Shown: piece after piece, positions 5,129-21,979 of the stretch
How positions within the stretch are numbered: position 1 is the first letter of the stretch
Layout: every line of letters begins with the position of its first letter
NCBI RefSeq assembly: GCF_001434055.1
Contig: NZ_AZCZ01000024.1
Location: forward strand, 1 to 40,983
DNA: 40,983 nucleotides
Source of the DNA: Levilactobacillus parabrevis ATCC 53295
GTDB taxonomy: Bacteria > Bacillota > Bacilli > Lactobacillales > Lactobacillaceae
Direction: 5' to 3'
Program-made: the position numbers and the translations under genes
The notes under the pieces: model-generated
What the model saw: only the letters and a program-made list of their open reading frames with translations
Database searches by the model: none
Told to the model about the DNA's origin: nothing

Positions 5129-5257
5129 TAAGAATTATTCGTTAAAAATTAATTGCACATTAATTAATTATTGACATATGTGTTGATTACCGTCATTGTT
5201 TCTGGGATTAATATACAAATGGATAGATACTGTTAATTAGATTATTGCTGAAAAAGT

Positions 5258-5286
5258 CTTTCAATCCTTCTGAAATGCTGTATAAT
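5258..5286 (+). promoter_or_regulatory. Promoter of spx
   Basis: A consensus -10 TATAAT at 5281-5286 has only a weak -35 (CTTTCA at 17 bases), 45 bases before the spx start. A separate TTGACA at 5172-5177 has no good -10 partner. A weak -35 would fit an activator-dependent gene, but that is a guess. Confidence 0.55.
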
Positions 5287-5330
5287 GAGTTTATTAAATC
5301 ATTTATACAAGGCAAGGGAGGAAAAAGATT

Positions 5331-5738
5331 ATGACAGTCACGCTCTACACATCACCCAGTTGTACATCTTGCCGCAAGGCTCGGATTTGGTTTGAAGAAC
5401 ATGGTATCGCGTATCGTGAACAGAATATCTTCTCCGAACCCTTAACCGTAGATCAGATTAAATCAATTCTGCGGCTGACCGAGGATGGTACCGAAGAGAT
5501 TGTTTCTAAGCGTTCACGGGTGTATCAGAATTTAACGGTCGACTTAGACGACTTGCCGTTGCGGCAACTCTACGATTTAATTCGCAAGAATCCAGGAATT
5601 CTACGCCGACCGATCATGGTGGACGACAAGCGACTCCAAGTTGGCTTCAACGAAGAGGAAATTCGTCGTTTCCTGCCCCGTGAAGTTCGGGAATTAGAGC
5701 TCGCTCGGGCCCAACGATTAGTTAATGGTAACGAATAA
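5331..5738 (+). CDS. spx: Spx-family transcriptional regulator (ArsC-like fold)
   Basis: A 135-residue homologue of Spx, which binds the RNA polymerase alpha C-terminal domain and redirects transcription in thiol-oxidative stress. The redox switch CTSC is at residues 11-14 (C10/C13 in Bacillus). The conserved [10 protein letters not shown] and [15 protein letters not shown] segments that contact alpha are present, and length matches the family. Start ATG has GGGAGG 10 bases upstream. It is followed by its own terminator and then mecA; in Bacillus MecA/ClpCP is linked to turnover of regulators and Spx is a ClpXP substrate, so the pair forms a stress-proteolysis neighbourhood. Confidence 0.95.
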
Positions 5739-14068: not shown

Positions 14069-14311
14069 AATTTGATTATTCAAAGACGTTGACGAGAAGT
14101 AGTAGTTCTGGTAGGTATTTAGAAAGCGGATGGTCGCTGCAAATCCGTTACTCCAGGGACGAACTTATCTCCGAGTCACTTCTGCCGCAAGGTGGGCGTT
14201 TGGCGACGTTATCAGCCGGAATGAGCCTCGAAGTTGTTTCGAGGAAATGTAGGTGGTACCGCGCTTAGACGCCCTGCAGGAGCCCATTTTGGGCTGCTGG
14301 GGGCTTTTTTT
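14069..14311 (+). promoter_or_regulatory. T-box riboswitch (leucine) upstream of leuS
   Basis: A tRNA-sensing leader. Stem I is closed by AGAAGT (14095-14100) with ACTTCT (14178-14183). The specifier is CTT at 14164-14166, followed by a purine as usual, or CTC at 14169-14171; both code for leucine. Stem III is CCTCGAA/TTCGAGG, followed by the T-box AGGTGGTACCGCG at 14251-14263. TGGT in the bulge would pair with ACCA, fitting the discriminator A of tRNA-Leu. Uncharged tRNA-Leu would stabilise the antiterminator and turn on leuS. Confidence 0.93.
14271..14311 (+). terminator. T-box regulated intrinsic terminator
   Basis: GCCC..CAG..AGCCCA pairs with TGGGCT..CTG..GGGC, followed by seven T. The 5' side lies just behind the T-box, so antiterminator and terminator compete. 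Confidence 0.9.
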
Positions 14312-18526: not shown

Positions 18527-19291
18527 CTACCGCCGACGGTGCCGCACAAACGTAAAGAAATGTAAGATACTGGCCAGCAGCACGTAAAAGATAATGACAA
18601 AGCTGGCGTACGTCAGCCAAAATTTGCCGGCCGCAAAGACGCCGAACCACCAAGCCTGCAGGCCCATGGTAATCAACGCCATGATAGCAATCATGAAGAA
18701 GAGCAGTATGTAACGTTTCAAGGTATTATCATCCTTTCGTGGCCGGTCAGCAATCTTTTGAGAGAGGTGGCGACACTCCGCGAGCTTGTTCTCCCGCGGG
18801 GCGTGCGTCCCCCAAGTGCCGGTACCGACAAATTCACCGACTTTGATCAGACCAGCGCCAGTCAAAACGCGGTCAATCGTGACAAAGGTTTGGTCGGTGA
18901 TACCGGTAAAGAAGTTATCGGCCGAGCTGATGAAGCAGGTCGTCATACTCAGGTAATGTTTATCCTTATATTTGCCGGGTAGAGTATCGGCCTTCGAGGT
19001 CATCCGAACTAGCCGGAATCGCATGCAGTCAAAGAACTGCTTCATGACGCCGGGCATCCCACCCCAGTAGGTTGGGGCACAGATAATCCAGAAGTCGCTG
19101 GCAGCCATCTTGGCTTCAATCTCATCGAGGGCTGGGCAAGCCTTCTCTTTGGTATCCGGATAAATATCGTAATCACGCAGGAAAACCGTCTCGACCTCGG
19201 CTGAATCCGGCAAGCCGTCCAAGACCGCTTGGAGGTAGCCGGCCGTGATGCCGTGGCGCTCGTGACTTCCTAATAGTGCTAAGTAACGCAA
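18527..19291 (-). CDS. Flavodoxin-fold NAD(P)H-dependent FMN reductase with C-terminal membrane anchor
   Basis: 254 residues. Residues 1-185 match the NADPH-dependent FMN reductase/flavodoxin-like family: LALLGSHERHG (FMN phosphate loop), ICAPTYWGGMPGVMKQFFDCM near 70-90, and GTGTWG. The C-terminal 65 residues hold two transmembrane helices (about 194-212 and 222-243) and end in RHRRR, so the flavin domain is held at the membrane. Such a tail is not usual for soluble FMN reductases. Start is TTG with GTGAGG 8 bases upstream; no in-frame ATG lies nearby. Substrate unknown; a membrane-linked quinone or iron reductase role is possible. Confidence 0.78.
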   Translation of the reverse strand: MRYLALLGSHERHGITAGYLQAVLDGLPDSAEVETVFLRDYDIYPDTKEKACPALDEIEAKMAASDFWIICAPTYWGGMPGVMKQFFDCMRFRLVRMTSKADTLPGKYKDKHYLSMTTCFISSADNFFTGITDQTFVTIDRVLTGAGLIKVGEFVGTGTWGTHAPRENKLAECRHLSQKIADRPRKDDNTLKRYILLFFMIAIMALITMGLQAWWFGVFAAGKFWLTYASFVIIFYVLLASILHFFTFVRHRRR

Positions 19292-19383: not shown

Positions 19384-19589
19384 CCGCATTGGTGGAAAAA
19401 TCTTTAGGATTTGAGCTTTTTGGGGCGTTGGTTGGGTTTGGAGTGGAGGCTGCGTGCCTAGTTGGGAAGTCTGCTGGATTATTAGTATTGAATATGGGTC
19501 AGAAGATGTTGGCTTAGATCTATGTTGGCTTAGGGGAACTGTTTTGATGTTAAATTGGCTTGGAGATTGTTTTCTAAATTTATGTGGCC
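19384..19589. other. C-poor intergenic stretch with short direct repeats
   Basis: The plus strand is rich in G and T and poor in C. ATGTTGGCTTAG occurs at 19506-19517 and 19522-19533, and a weaker ATTGGCTTGG near 19553. No open frame with a ribosome site is seen. Confidence 0.5.
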
Positions 19590-19712
19590 GAAACGTACTC
19601 CAGCAGGCAGTCAGCTCCGCTTAGCCCCAATAAGGAAAAAGCCAGGCCCGGGCTTTTATCCTTATTGACGTTAATGCTCACTGACTCCCGCCTGCTTCCG
19701 CACTCTTTTACT
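19590..19712. repeat. Structured intergenic repeat, unit A
   Basis: First of two adjacent units about 123 bp apart. It folds into a long hairpin: AGCAGGC-AGTCAG (19602-19614) pairs with CTGACT (19681-19686) and GCCTGCT (19690-19696). The inner stem CAATAAGGA-AAAAGCC (19628-19643) pairs with GGCTTTT-TCCTTATTG (19651-19667). Unpaired blocks GAAACGT, ACGTTAATGCTCA and TTCCGCACTCTTT are shared with unit B. Confidence 0.85.
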
Positions 19713-19835
19713 GAAACGTGCTCCACAAGGCAGACTCCTGCGCTTAACCTCAATAAGGAAAAATCCAGACCCGGGATTTTGCCCTTAATGACGTTAATGC
19801 TCAGAGTCTAAGCGCCTTGTTCCGCACTCTTTGCC
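19713..19835. repeat. Structured intergenic repeat, unit B
   Basis: Same architecture as unit A with changed stem sequences: CAAGGC (19726-19731) with GCCTTG (19814-19819), AGACTC (19732-19737) with GAGTCT (19804-19809), and AAAATCC (19760-19766) with GGATTTT (19774-19780). The stems differ from unit A on both sides together, while the single-stranded blocks are the same. Confidence 0.85.
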
Positions 19836-19836
19836 A

Positions 19837-19874
19837 CAAAAAAGCCCTCGCGGACCAACCGGCCGGCGGGGGTA
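19837..19874 (-). terminator. Terminator of the gene at 19884
   Basis: On the minus strand a GC-rich stem (CCCCCGC with GCGAGGG, plus inner GGCC/GG pairs) is followed by TTTTTT, 10 bases past the stop. Confidence 0.75.
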
Positions 19875-19883
19875 CTGGATTAA

Positions 19884-20207
19884 TTATTGCAGTAATTCCG
19901 TTAAGATGGCGAAGAAGCGGTGCTTAACAACTTCATCTTCGCCAGCCTTTGAGAATTGGTAATTGAGTAAGTGACGGTCAAATTCGTGGAAGAAGACGTC
20001 AGCCATCGTTTGATAATCACTATCATTGGTCTGGTCGATCCGCTTAAAGCTACGCCATGTGGAATAAATCAATTGCGCGTCTTGAACCTGTGCTAACTCT
20101 GGAAAATGTTGACGGATACTTTTAGTCATCCGCACAACTTGCTTGGCTCTTTCCGGCGACATTTGCATTTCTGGAGCTGCGGTAGCCCCAGCTGCTACTT
20201 GTGTCAT
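19884..20207 (-). CDS. Small protein of unknown function
   Basis: 107 residues; I do not recognise the family. It is predicted helical and soluble, with a disordered N-terminus (MTQVAAGATAAPEMQM), then amphipathic helices such as ERAKQVVRMTKSIRQHF and QTMADVFFHEFDRHLLNY. AAGGAGG lies 9 bases before the ATG and a terminator follows the stop, so it looks like a real single-gene unit. Size and helical pattern would also suit a bacteriocin-immunity type bundle, but no bacteriocin gene is nearby and I do not claim it. Confidence 0.65.
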   Translation of the reverse strand: MTQVAAGATAAPEMQMSPERAKQVVRMTKSIRQHFPELAQVQDAQLIYSTWRSFKRIDQTNDSDYQTMADVFFHEFDRHLLNYQFSKAGEDEVVKHRFFAILTELLQ

Positions 20208-20400: not shown

Positions 20401-20600
20401 GTTGAATTTGTCAACCACGCCCGTTTAAAAACGGACGCTTGTGAGAACCACACCCCACGGCATAGTGACCACAATTTGCTTAGATACAGCGCTAGCCTAC
20501 GAATAGGTCTTATCCGCTAATTACCAAAGCCTTTTAGGTCCGTAGGTTGCCAGACGGACTCGTTTCTTACAAGGTTGCTAAACCCTTAGCTAAAATGTTC
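20401..20600 (-). ncRNA. Candidate omega-RNA (TnpB guide RNA) at the element's right end
   Basis: In this family the guide RNA comes from the 3' end of tnpB through the right end, and the guide itself is the flanking sequence. Here the region from the tnpB stop to 20401 is noncoding, about 165 bases, and structured (CCGTCTGG..CCTACGG; GTCCGTT/AACGGGC; GTTGA/TCAAC). The guide would then be the minus-strand bases just below 20401. Ends are inferred. Confidence 0.5.
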
Positions 20601-21820
20601 TGTGCCGCATTATGATCACGTATATGGAATATCCCACAACTTGGACACGTCCACTTGCGATCAGCCAACGTCAACTTGTTTTTTCCGGCCATAACGTGCC
20701 CACAACGGCTACAAGTTTGCGTTGTATTTCGCGGACTGACAGTCAAAAATTTCCGACCATATAACCCAGCTTTGTAGGATAGCATAGCCAATAGTGTTCG
20801 CCAGCCAACGTCCGAAACGCTCATTGCCAAAGCGTGGTTCCGCAACATATTTTTACTCCGCAGTTCTTCAGCTACGACTAAATCGTGGTTTTTGATCAAG
20901 GTCGTAGAGACATGGTGCAGGAAATTCTTGCGTTTATTAGCGACTTTAAGCCGTAATTTAGCCACTAGTAACCGTTGCTTTTGATAATTCTTTGATTCTG
21001 ATAAACGTTGTTGGTTCTTCTTAGCTCGTCTAGCCCGCCGTGACAGTTTCCGTTGGGCTTTAGCTAGCTTTCCCTTAATCATTCGGTAGTAACGTGGATT
21101 AGCAATCACCTGTCCATTGGAGTCCGTCAGAAAATTATCAAGGTTTAGATCAATCCCAACTTTAGATTTCGTAACTCTTTGCTTGGCAGCGAAAGGGTGT
21201 CCCGAACCCATCTGCAGGGACACAAAGTAATGGCCGACAGCATCCATCGAAATTGTCGTTGTCCCGATTCTGATATCATCGGCTTGATCCAAAATCTTCG
21301 ATGGCAGTCCCTTAAAACGAAGACGCCCAAGCTTGGGTAGTTGTAGATGATGAGTATCATTTAGTCTTACGCTGCCATTACGCATAGTTGGCACTGCCAC
21401 TTTGGCACCGTAAAGACACGATGTTTGATAAGTTTGAGTATAACCACGCTTATGAAATTTAGGCGTCCCCGCCTGATGAACCTGGCGGAATAGCTTCCAG
21501 GCAGTCTTGTAATTTTTGATAGCGTTGGCTTTCATCAAGCTATCAAAATCTGGATGATTTAACCAACCATGAATATTGGAGATAGCAGTCGATGGATTCC
21601 TTAGACGTTCAGTCAGATCAGCGATTCGATTCAAGACAATTGTAATTGGAATCTTCACTTGCTTTAACCAGAACAGGTCATTGGTCATGTCATTCATCTG
21701 ATTATAAATGAACCGGCTAGCATCACTATTACGCTTAATCAGCCGTTTTTGTTCGGTTGAAGGAAAGACTCTAACCTTAACGCCACAATGGTAAGGTAAT
21801 TGGGCCATTGTCTTCGCCAT
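20567..21820 (-). CDS. tnpB: TnpB RNA-guided nuclease of an IS605-type element
   Basis: 417 residues, close to the 408 of ISDra2 TnpB. The RuvC catalytic residues are all visible: D224 in VGIDLNLDN, E318 in LVVAEELRS and D402 in RDHNAAQNI. The zinc ribbon CSRC..CPSC has C370, C373, C392 and C395. The N-terminal part (about 1-215, with GVKVRVFPSTEQ and KFHKRG) is the RNA and TAM-recognition region. TnpB is the ancestor of Cas12 and cuts DNA matching the omega-RNA guide, which keeps the element in the population. The start at 21820 has AGGAGGT 8 bases upstream; the longer frame to 21976 runs through the left end. Confidence 0.93.
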   Translation of the reverse strand: MAKTMAQLPYHCGVKVRVFPSTEQKRLIKRNSDASRFIYNQMNDMTNDLFWLKQVKIPITIVLNRIADLTERLRNPSTAISNIHGWLNHPDFDSLMKANAIKNYKTAWKLFRQVHQAGTPKFHKRGYTQTYQTSCLYGAKVAVPTMRNGSVRLNDTHHLQLPKLGRLRFKGLPSKILDQADDIRIGTTTISMDAVGHYFVSLQMGSGHPFAAKQRVTKSKVGIDLNLDNFLTDSNGQVIANPRYYRMIKGKLAKAQRKLSRRARRAKKNQQRLSESKNYQKQRLLVAKLRLKVANKRKNFLHHVSTTLIKNHDLVVAEELRSKNMLRNHALAMSVSDVGWRTLLAMLSYKAGLYGRKFLTVSPRNTTQTCSRCGHVMAGKNKLTLADRKWTCPSCGIFHIRDHNAAQNILAKGLATL

Positions 21821-21906
21821 AAGCTGCCACCTCCTCTTGCTTGATGGTAGCATATCATATGAGTATACTGTATCCATAGCGAAACGGCTTATAATAATAT
21901 TTATGA

Positions 21907-21957
21907 AGGTATCATATGAGCAAGGAAGCCGTAGAAAGCTACATTGCCAGTCAGTGA
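21907..21957 (+). pseudogene. Relic of tnpA (C-terminal codons only)
   Basis: About 16 codons after a stop read RYHMSKEAVESYIASQ and then TGA, which resembles the C-terminus of IS200/IS605 TnpA (typically ..V..E.V..YI..Q). It lies divergent from tnpB, where tnpA normally sits, so the transposase gene has been lost by internal deletion. Nearby TATCATATGAG occurs twice (about 21853 and 21910), which may mark the deletion endpoints. Confidence 0.5.
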
Positions 21958-21979
21958 ACGGCATAGTGGCATTCATCCC

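Follow-up and report, generated by a model that had tools for sequence, protein, structure and literature searches.

The two tandem units at positions 19587-19831 of the window (the whole 40,983-nucleotide stretch of Levilactobacillus parabrevis ATCC 53295 DNA that was analyzed) belong to a dispersed family of long bulged hairpins that lie mostly at the 3' ends of genes and occur in seven families of Lactobacillales. The existence, fold, and placement of this family are firm. We regard it as a dispersed, non-autonomous, REP/BOX-like repeat of the order whose fold is probably needed for its spread. It is an order-wide variant of the dispersed structured repeats of the REP, BOX, and EFAR kind, unusual in its placement and in the rule by which its arrays grow. 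The first-pass annotation, which reported two hairpin units with compensatory stem changes at this place, was right in its observation and understated it. Lactobacilli thus carry an abundant folded non-coding element that has no Rfam model and alters gene 3' ends.

Structure, covariation, and strand of the unit

Both units are read on the minus strand, as are the two flanking genes. The first, gene-proximal (5') copy is a full hairpin at 19711..19831 (-), identified by nhmmer, by folding, and by R1, a covariance model made from 30 units, which matches 19710-19831 with 134 bits (E 2e-35). The second tandem copy, also a full hairpin, occupies 19587..19707 (-; R1 match of 121.3 bits, repeat search, and fold), and its stems differ from those of the first by paired changes. 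The units are arranged head-to-tail, and the repeat search pairs 19590-19680 with 19713-19803 at 84% identity and a spacing of 123. On either strand, the fold of both units was better than that of every one of 200 dinucleotide shuffles, with z values of -3.86 (plus) and -4.46 (minus) for 19585-19712 and of -6.30 (plus) and -5.00 (minus) for 19709-19836.

Upstream of the pair lies a gene for a 107-aa protein (19884..20207, -) that is present in all 35 genomes compared within the genus and whose product had no Pfam or NCBIfam match at E 0.001. Its likely intrinsic terminator, recognized by eye from the sequence and the orthologous loci, is at 19837..19877 (-), where a GC-rich hairpin is followed on the minus strand by GGGCTTTTTTG; it immediately precedes the element. 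The downstream gene (18527..19291, -) encodes an NADPH-dependent FMN reductase domain (PF03358). An A/C-rich stretch of the minus strand (19400..19586) separates the promoter region of this gene from the second unit and, judging from a comparison of loci L085 and L086, may contain the tail of the element; this stretch gave no by-eye alignment to empty sites.

The unit is one long bulged hairpin of 123 R1 model positions with six helices. On the minus-type strand, the family consensus reads AAGAGTG ... GCGNTTAG ... GAGCATTAACG ... apex ... GGGTTAAGCGSA ... CTGCC ... CACGTTTC, in which GCGNTTAG is the conserved bulge and AGAGTG...CACGTTTC are the conserved ends. Within ACGTTAATGCTCA, the letters GTTAATGC pair with GCTTAAC to form a conserved helix that carries a bulge, and the hairpin is closed by GTGY/RCAC, a short outer helix near both ends. 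The stem and block words quoted in the first-pass annotation are present where it placed them, and the stem differences between the two units are compensatory, as it described. What it called single-stranded blocks are partly unpaired, but part of this sequence is helical, namely the GTTAATGC paired with GCTTAAC and the closing GTGY/RCAC.

In two units alone, such compensation could have arisen by chance; 104 aligned copies exclude this. Of 3945 cells, 97.7% were paired, and 35 of 38 pairs had changed on both sides. The covariation score was 0.721, compared with 0.169 for shuffled and 0.056-0.078 for slid alignments; none of 500 shuffles reached any of five structure measures. Structure is favored both by fitting the alignment to the model and by relatedness among its rows, but the margin far exceeds these effects. 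The selected, covarying fold that had been proposed from two units is thus borne out. An aberrant copy was noticed at L084 1972-2094, where the inner conserved blocks are lost and the stems are very long and perfect, one of them containing AAGAGTGC...GCACTCTT.

The strand, which had been left open, is indicated here as the minus (gene-sense) strand by gene orientation and by an excess of G-U over A-C cells: in a sequence-only alignment of 243 copies, the minus-type strand had 322 G-U and 176 A-C cells, the cells being non-independent. One pair, which is G-U in 209 of 241 copies, was set aside from this comparison. The minus strand also has the lower folding energy, but we dropped this as proof of the strand because its shuffles were lower by about as much (means of -40.2 vs. 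-30.1 and of -34.5 vs. -25.4). We also rejected the unit itself as an intrinsic terminator, since the position profile of 180 copies has no T-run directly after the 123-nt unit; a separate terminator may follow.

Distribution of the family and comparison with known elements

In its own genome (2.6 Mb in 133 contigs), the repeat was found by blastn at 51 places. Within the genus, R1 had matches at E 1e-3 in 34 of 35 genomes, with none in G004 and one and three in G024 and G018, and in the search of Lactobacillaceae that the first-pass annotation had proposed it matched 165 of 301 genomes spread over 24 of 40 genera. Among 295 genomes drawn from the whole order, 49 matched at E 1e-6, 20 from the same family and 29 from six other families. 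Matches at E 1e-10 numbered 22, 39, 42, and 32 in four near-complete genomes, and ten of the 29 genomes, picked as matching, had 1 to 81 each at E 1e-5; per-genome counts in the genus and in these ten overstate the copies because weaker, opposite-strand matches to the near-palindrome are included. The matches listed by a pattern scan include L. brevis CP032931.1, Lactiplantibacillus, Paucilactobacillus, Furfurilactobacillus, Lacticaseibacillus, and unplaced Lactobacillus records. Copies were skewed to the origin half in contig C1 of genome G032 (31 of 41, KS p 0.0002), and no such skew was seen in G005, G030, and G034 (p 0.25, 0.28, and 0.21); the origin-proximity test took 132 of 135 positions. 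By-eye inspection of G030 alone gave no replichore orientation rule.

The window type gave no blastn match in collections of 72,556 plasmid and 50,697 phage sequences and no exact-pattern match in IMG/VR, and the L037 unit had no blastn match in the plasmid collection. However, a relative from another family, L400 (an R1 match), had blastn matches in 110 plasmids (107 of Enterococcus and three of Lactococcus), so the wider family extends beyond chromosomes. As for two further relatives, L388 had no match in plasmids, and L381 had one match of 41 bases, in Aerococcus tenax.

The first-pass annotation recognized no known family, and a scan of the window with Rfam 15 agreed, with no match at 19587-19831 at the gathering score. 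At E up to 10, the region 19400-20000 matched only Ocean-VII (15 bits, cut-off 53.5). Among 12 loci searched at E up to 1, a T-box match of 29.5 bits (cut-off 93) lay over the L080 copy, and among 11 loci mir-3914 and Plastid-psbA-4 lay over copies, both below their cut-offs. At L377 (1112-1199 (-) and 1662-1760 (-)), the repeat array follows the end of a group II intron (RF00029, 51.2 bits) and a stretch that resembles a tRNA 3' end, in which ARAGORN found no tRNA, and BsrC (RF01410, 62.3 bits, cut-off 38; 1112-1199) is found just past the array. These above-cut-off matches adjoin the copy and lie outside it. An Rfam identity of the repeat was rejected on these searches. The literature searched by title and abstract start, a scope with most subscription papers outside it, contained no description of this repeat family.

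REP is a palindromic unit of 20-40 nt, linked to RAYT (Y1) proteins, in the enterobacterial REP/BIME. The repeat resembles REP/BIME in being intergenic, present in many copies, folded as an imperfect hairpin, arranged in tandem arrays near gene 3' ends, and probably non-autonomous; unlike them, it has 123 nt, six helices, and a strong sense-strand bias, and on unit length (123 model positions vs. 20-40 nt) we rejected membership. A RAYT partner was also rejected, since the flanks of the genome's six Y1_Tnp places (up to 1.5 kb, some cut by contig ends) contained no repeat in a search at E 10. Among 717 ORFs within 1.5 kb of copies, called by a longest-ORF rule, none of the 14 most widespread clusters looked by eye like a transposase or recombinase: the largest (18 loci) consists of spurious ORFs inside the repeat, and the next (16 loci) resembles ABC transporters.

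MITEs are short, non-coding, near-palindromic, dispersed elements that are present or absent at orthologous sites. The repeat shares all of these features, its presence varying between orthologous sites, and has terminal inverted repeats in the GTGY/RCAC outer helix; unlike MITEs, it displaces a terminator, its internal helices covary, and no target duplication was seen by eye at two clean empty sites. Integron attC sites and Vibrio VCRs are repeated sequences of about 120 nt with variable paired stems around conserved bulges, and attC has the core sites RYYYAAC / GTTRRRY at its ends. Although size, repetition, and variable stems around conserved bulges are common to both, the arrays that we read have tandem units with no gene cassettes between them, and the ends, AAGAGTG and CACGTTTC, are not core sites; attC was rejected on these ends.

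EFAR are repeats of E. faecalis, and the module plan of BOX and RUP differs from that of the repeat here. Efa-1 of Enterococcus faecalis is a folded sequence of 163 nt in 65 copies, described as an adjacent stem-loop pair, and BOX and RUP elements of Streptococcus pneumoniae are named in the same text (PMC2267715). By description, BOX and RUP are likewise structured repeats scattered through intergenic DNA, in a different family of the order, and EFAR/Efa-1 are the nearest described repeats: Efa-1 is an intergenic, folded repeat of Lactobacillales, and the relative L400 matches Enterococcus plasmids, whereas the repeat here is one long hairpin.

Placement at gene ends and polarity of arrays

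The placement of the repeat was examined with 253 near-full copies, from which 19 inside an ORF call and six without an upstream ORF were dropped to leave 228. ORFs for this and the T-run counts were called by the longest-ORF rule, and in the placement, terminator, T-run, strand, and truncation counts identical sequences were collapsed and orthologous copies counted separately. The strand of the upstream gene was shared by 184 of the 228 copies and opposed by 44 (24:2 in G000, 22:4 in G031, and 23:9 in G032), and 104 of the 184 same-strand copies began within 12 nt of the stop codon, and 42 overlapped it. Of 226 copies with sufficient flanks, 79 were followed by a terminator within 100 nt, compared with 13 when a window of the same size was placed 300 nt further downstream, and 44 were preceded by one within 60 nt; 117 had a terminator on either side and six on both. 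Among 178 copies, 48 had TTTTT in the 25 nt before them and seven had it in a control window. The pair in the window has the after-terminator type of placement. In G032, two elements on opposite strands, one shortened and one full, converge on a single two-way terminator (L355, about 5150-5400); the corresponding place in G031 (L229) has a single full element. The copy at L010 1502-1625, with the element read on the plus strand, has a downstream tail in which CCAAA is repeated about seven times, resembling a slipped 3' tail.

Presence of the repeat varied between species. At the locus of the 107-aa gene, compared in 30 of the 35 genomes, four genomes (including that of the window) had full units, one had a remnant, and 25 had no element match at E 0.01. 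Two clean empty sites, both from the pair G031 and G032 (about 90% identical), were found, L337 for L234 and L254 for L230: the element with its own terminator stands exactly where G032 has a different terminator, and where the terminator is replaced no target-site duplication was seen by eye. At L247, the G032 counterpart (L313) is not clean and has about 800 other bases that end in another terminator; that of L232 is an unrelated stretch without a clear T-run; and at L241 and L237 the sites are common to both genomes, the G032 copy being shortened. In this clade, similarity between copies extends over about 178 nt, comprising hairpin, tail, and terminator. Judged from match ranges alone, the element occurs at one same site in the distant G020, G016, and G006 and is absent from the closer G011, G028, G005, and G022, a patchy occurrence that would reflect loss or recurrent insertion.

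Most striking of all is the polarity of truncation. Among 315 distinct matches at E 1e-5, 268 were full, 44 lacked the 5' part, one lacked the 3' part, and two ran into the end of their locus. Of the 44 5'-truncated units, 41 lay within 150 nt behind another unit, as against 17 of the 268 full ones. In G032 at the looser E 1e-4 (n=55), nine units lacked the 5' part and two the 3' part. Arrays thus seem to grow at the gene-proximal end. By eye, the unit that is full at L252 in G031 lacks its 5' part at L340 in G032, where a new full unit stands ahead of it; L340 has also undergone a later tandem duplication. Unit order is reciprocally swapped in L249/L317 and L053/L351, and L083 contains chimeric units, so unequal recombination also shapes the arrays.

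Proposed spread and decay, and alternative explanations

We propose that the 123-nt bulged hairpin, to which some clades add a tail of 45-55 nt and possibly an intrinsic terminator of their own, inserts new copies at gene 3' ends in the sense orientation, either just past the stop codon, where the terminator would be displaced, or just past the T-run of the terminator. A later copy would land at the same gene-proximal edge and remove the 5' part of the earlier one, and the outcome would be arrays headed by a single full unit, with older units lacking their 5' part behind it. The fold of the gene-sense strand would be required for spreading, recognized as single-stranded DNA or RNA by some enzyme, and active lineages would therefore preserve stem pairing even as the stem sequences drift. 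Resident copies would decay slowly and serve at most as a structure at the mRNA 3' end.

The changes in resident copies bear on the last of these points. In 15 orthologous pairs of G031 and G032, 25 single changes broke a base pair and 24 kept it (by G-U), while 64 double changes kept pairing and three broke it. Of the 64, 41 belong to three orthologous pairs that differ in array order. The other 12 had 44 single changes, of which 19 created or removed a G-U, 12 an A-C, and 11 another mismatch, while two went between G-U and other; the difference between 19 and 12 is weak. Single changes in residents thus look like slow decay. The first-pass annotation had held that this was not a decaying repeat, and on this point it does not stand: the repeat is dispersed, many copies are truncated, and single changes keep and break pairs about equally. 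Its interpretation as a whole keeps the structure, the covariation, the further copies, and the lack of an Rfam match, and loses this claim together with, in part, the single-strandedness of the blocks. The 12 orthologous pairs also had 23 kept double changes, confined to five of them. This is many beside 44 singles and may mean conversion, rewriting of an arm, or selective upkeep of resident copies in place. At L239/L367 and L246/L303, the double changes cluster in one stem.

A more specific form of the proposal, which we put forward tentatively, is a mobile 3'-end module that targets gene ends through the terminator or a resident copy, swaps the terminator, stacks polarly, and moves by a single-strand or RNA-guided route. 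The newest full copy would then be gene-proximal, older copies would lose the 5' arm, and some clades would carry their own terminator. Such a module could be a route of terminator exchange and, if a mobilizing enzyme is found, a transposition system that recognizes a long bulged hairpin.

Alternatively, the unit might serve the host as a 3'UTR RNA, a REP-type hairpin that stabilizes mRNA or assists translation termination or transcript termination and that spread by duplication and recombination. The sense orientation at gene ends between stop codon and terminator, the strand bias in pairing (G-U over A-C), and the 23 kept double changes are all consistent with this function. We nevertheless consider it unlikely, given that 44 of 226 copies have a terminator within the preceding 60 nt and would mostly lie outside the mRNA, that 25 of 30 orthologous loci have no match, and that single changes in residents broke pairs (25) about as often as they kept them (24). 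Less credible still is a DNA repeat driven by recombination, in which structure is incidental and arms are rewritten by quasi-palindrome correction or converted, with unequal crossing over. Chimeric and reordered units, the one-stem clustering of double changes at L239/L367 and L246/L303, and very long perfect stems such as those at L084 1972-2094 fit this explanation. However, arm correction would erase the conserved mismatches and bulges, both of which the aligned copies keep; no strand bias would be expected, yet G-U exceeds A-C; and the sense-strand placement at 3' ends is not accounted for. We lean toward a fold needed during spread over the host-function and rewriting explanations. It is very improbable that every copy is a gene for a small RNA that acts in trans and binds through the conserved bulges: the compact, RNA-like conserved fold with its bulges and conserved U-G pair would suit such a role, but copies number in the dozens, a profile of the 60 nt before 180 full copies has no position-locked promoter-like letters, and placement is tied to the end of the upstream gene. 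The family provides a ready covariance model and, for the spread of small bacterial repeats, a testable polarity rule.

Other features of the window were noted in passing. About 700 bases from the repeats, at 20567-21976 (-), is a TnpB RNA-guided endonuclease (NF040570), beyond whose 3' end a putative guide-RNA region may lie; no Y1 transposase place was found on the contig that bears it. A T-box leader at 14080-14279 (93.4 bits) is immediately 5' of an 816-aa ORF that by eye resembles leucyl-tRNA synthetase. Finally, a block of tRNA genes at 903-2343 has a period of 644 bases, with, for example, pairs at 979/1623, 1105/1749, and 1199/1843 and a triple at 903, 1547, and 2191.
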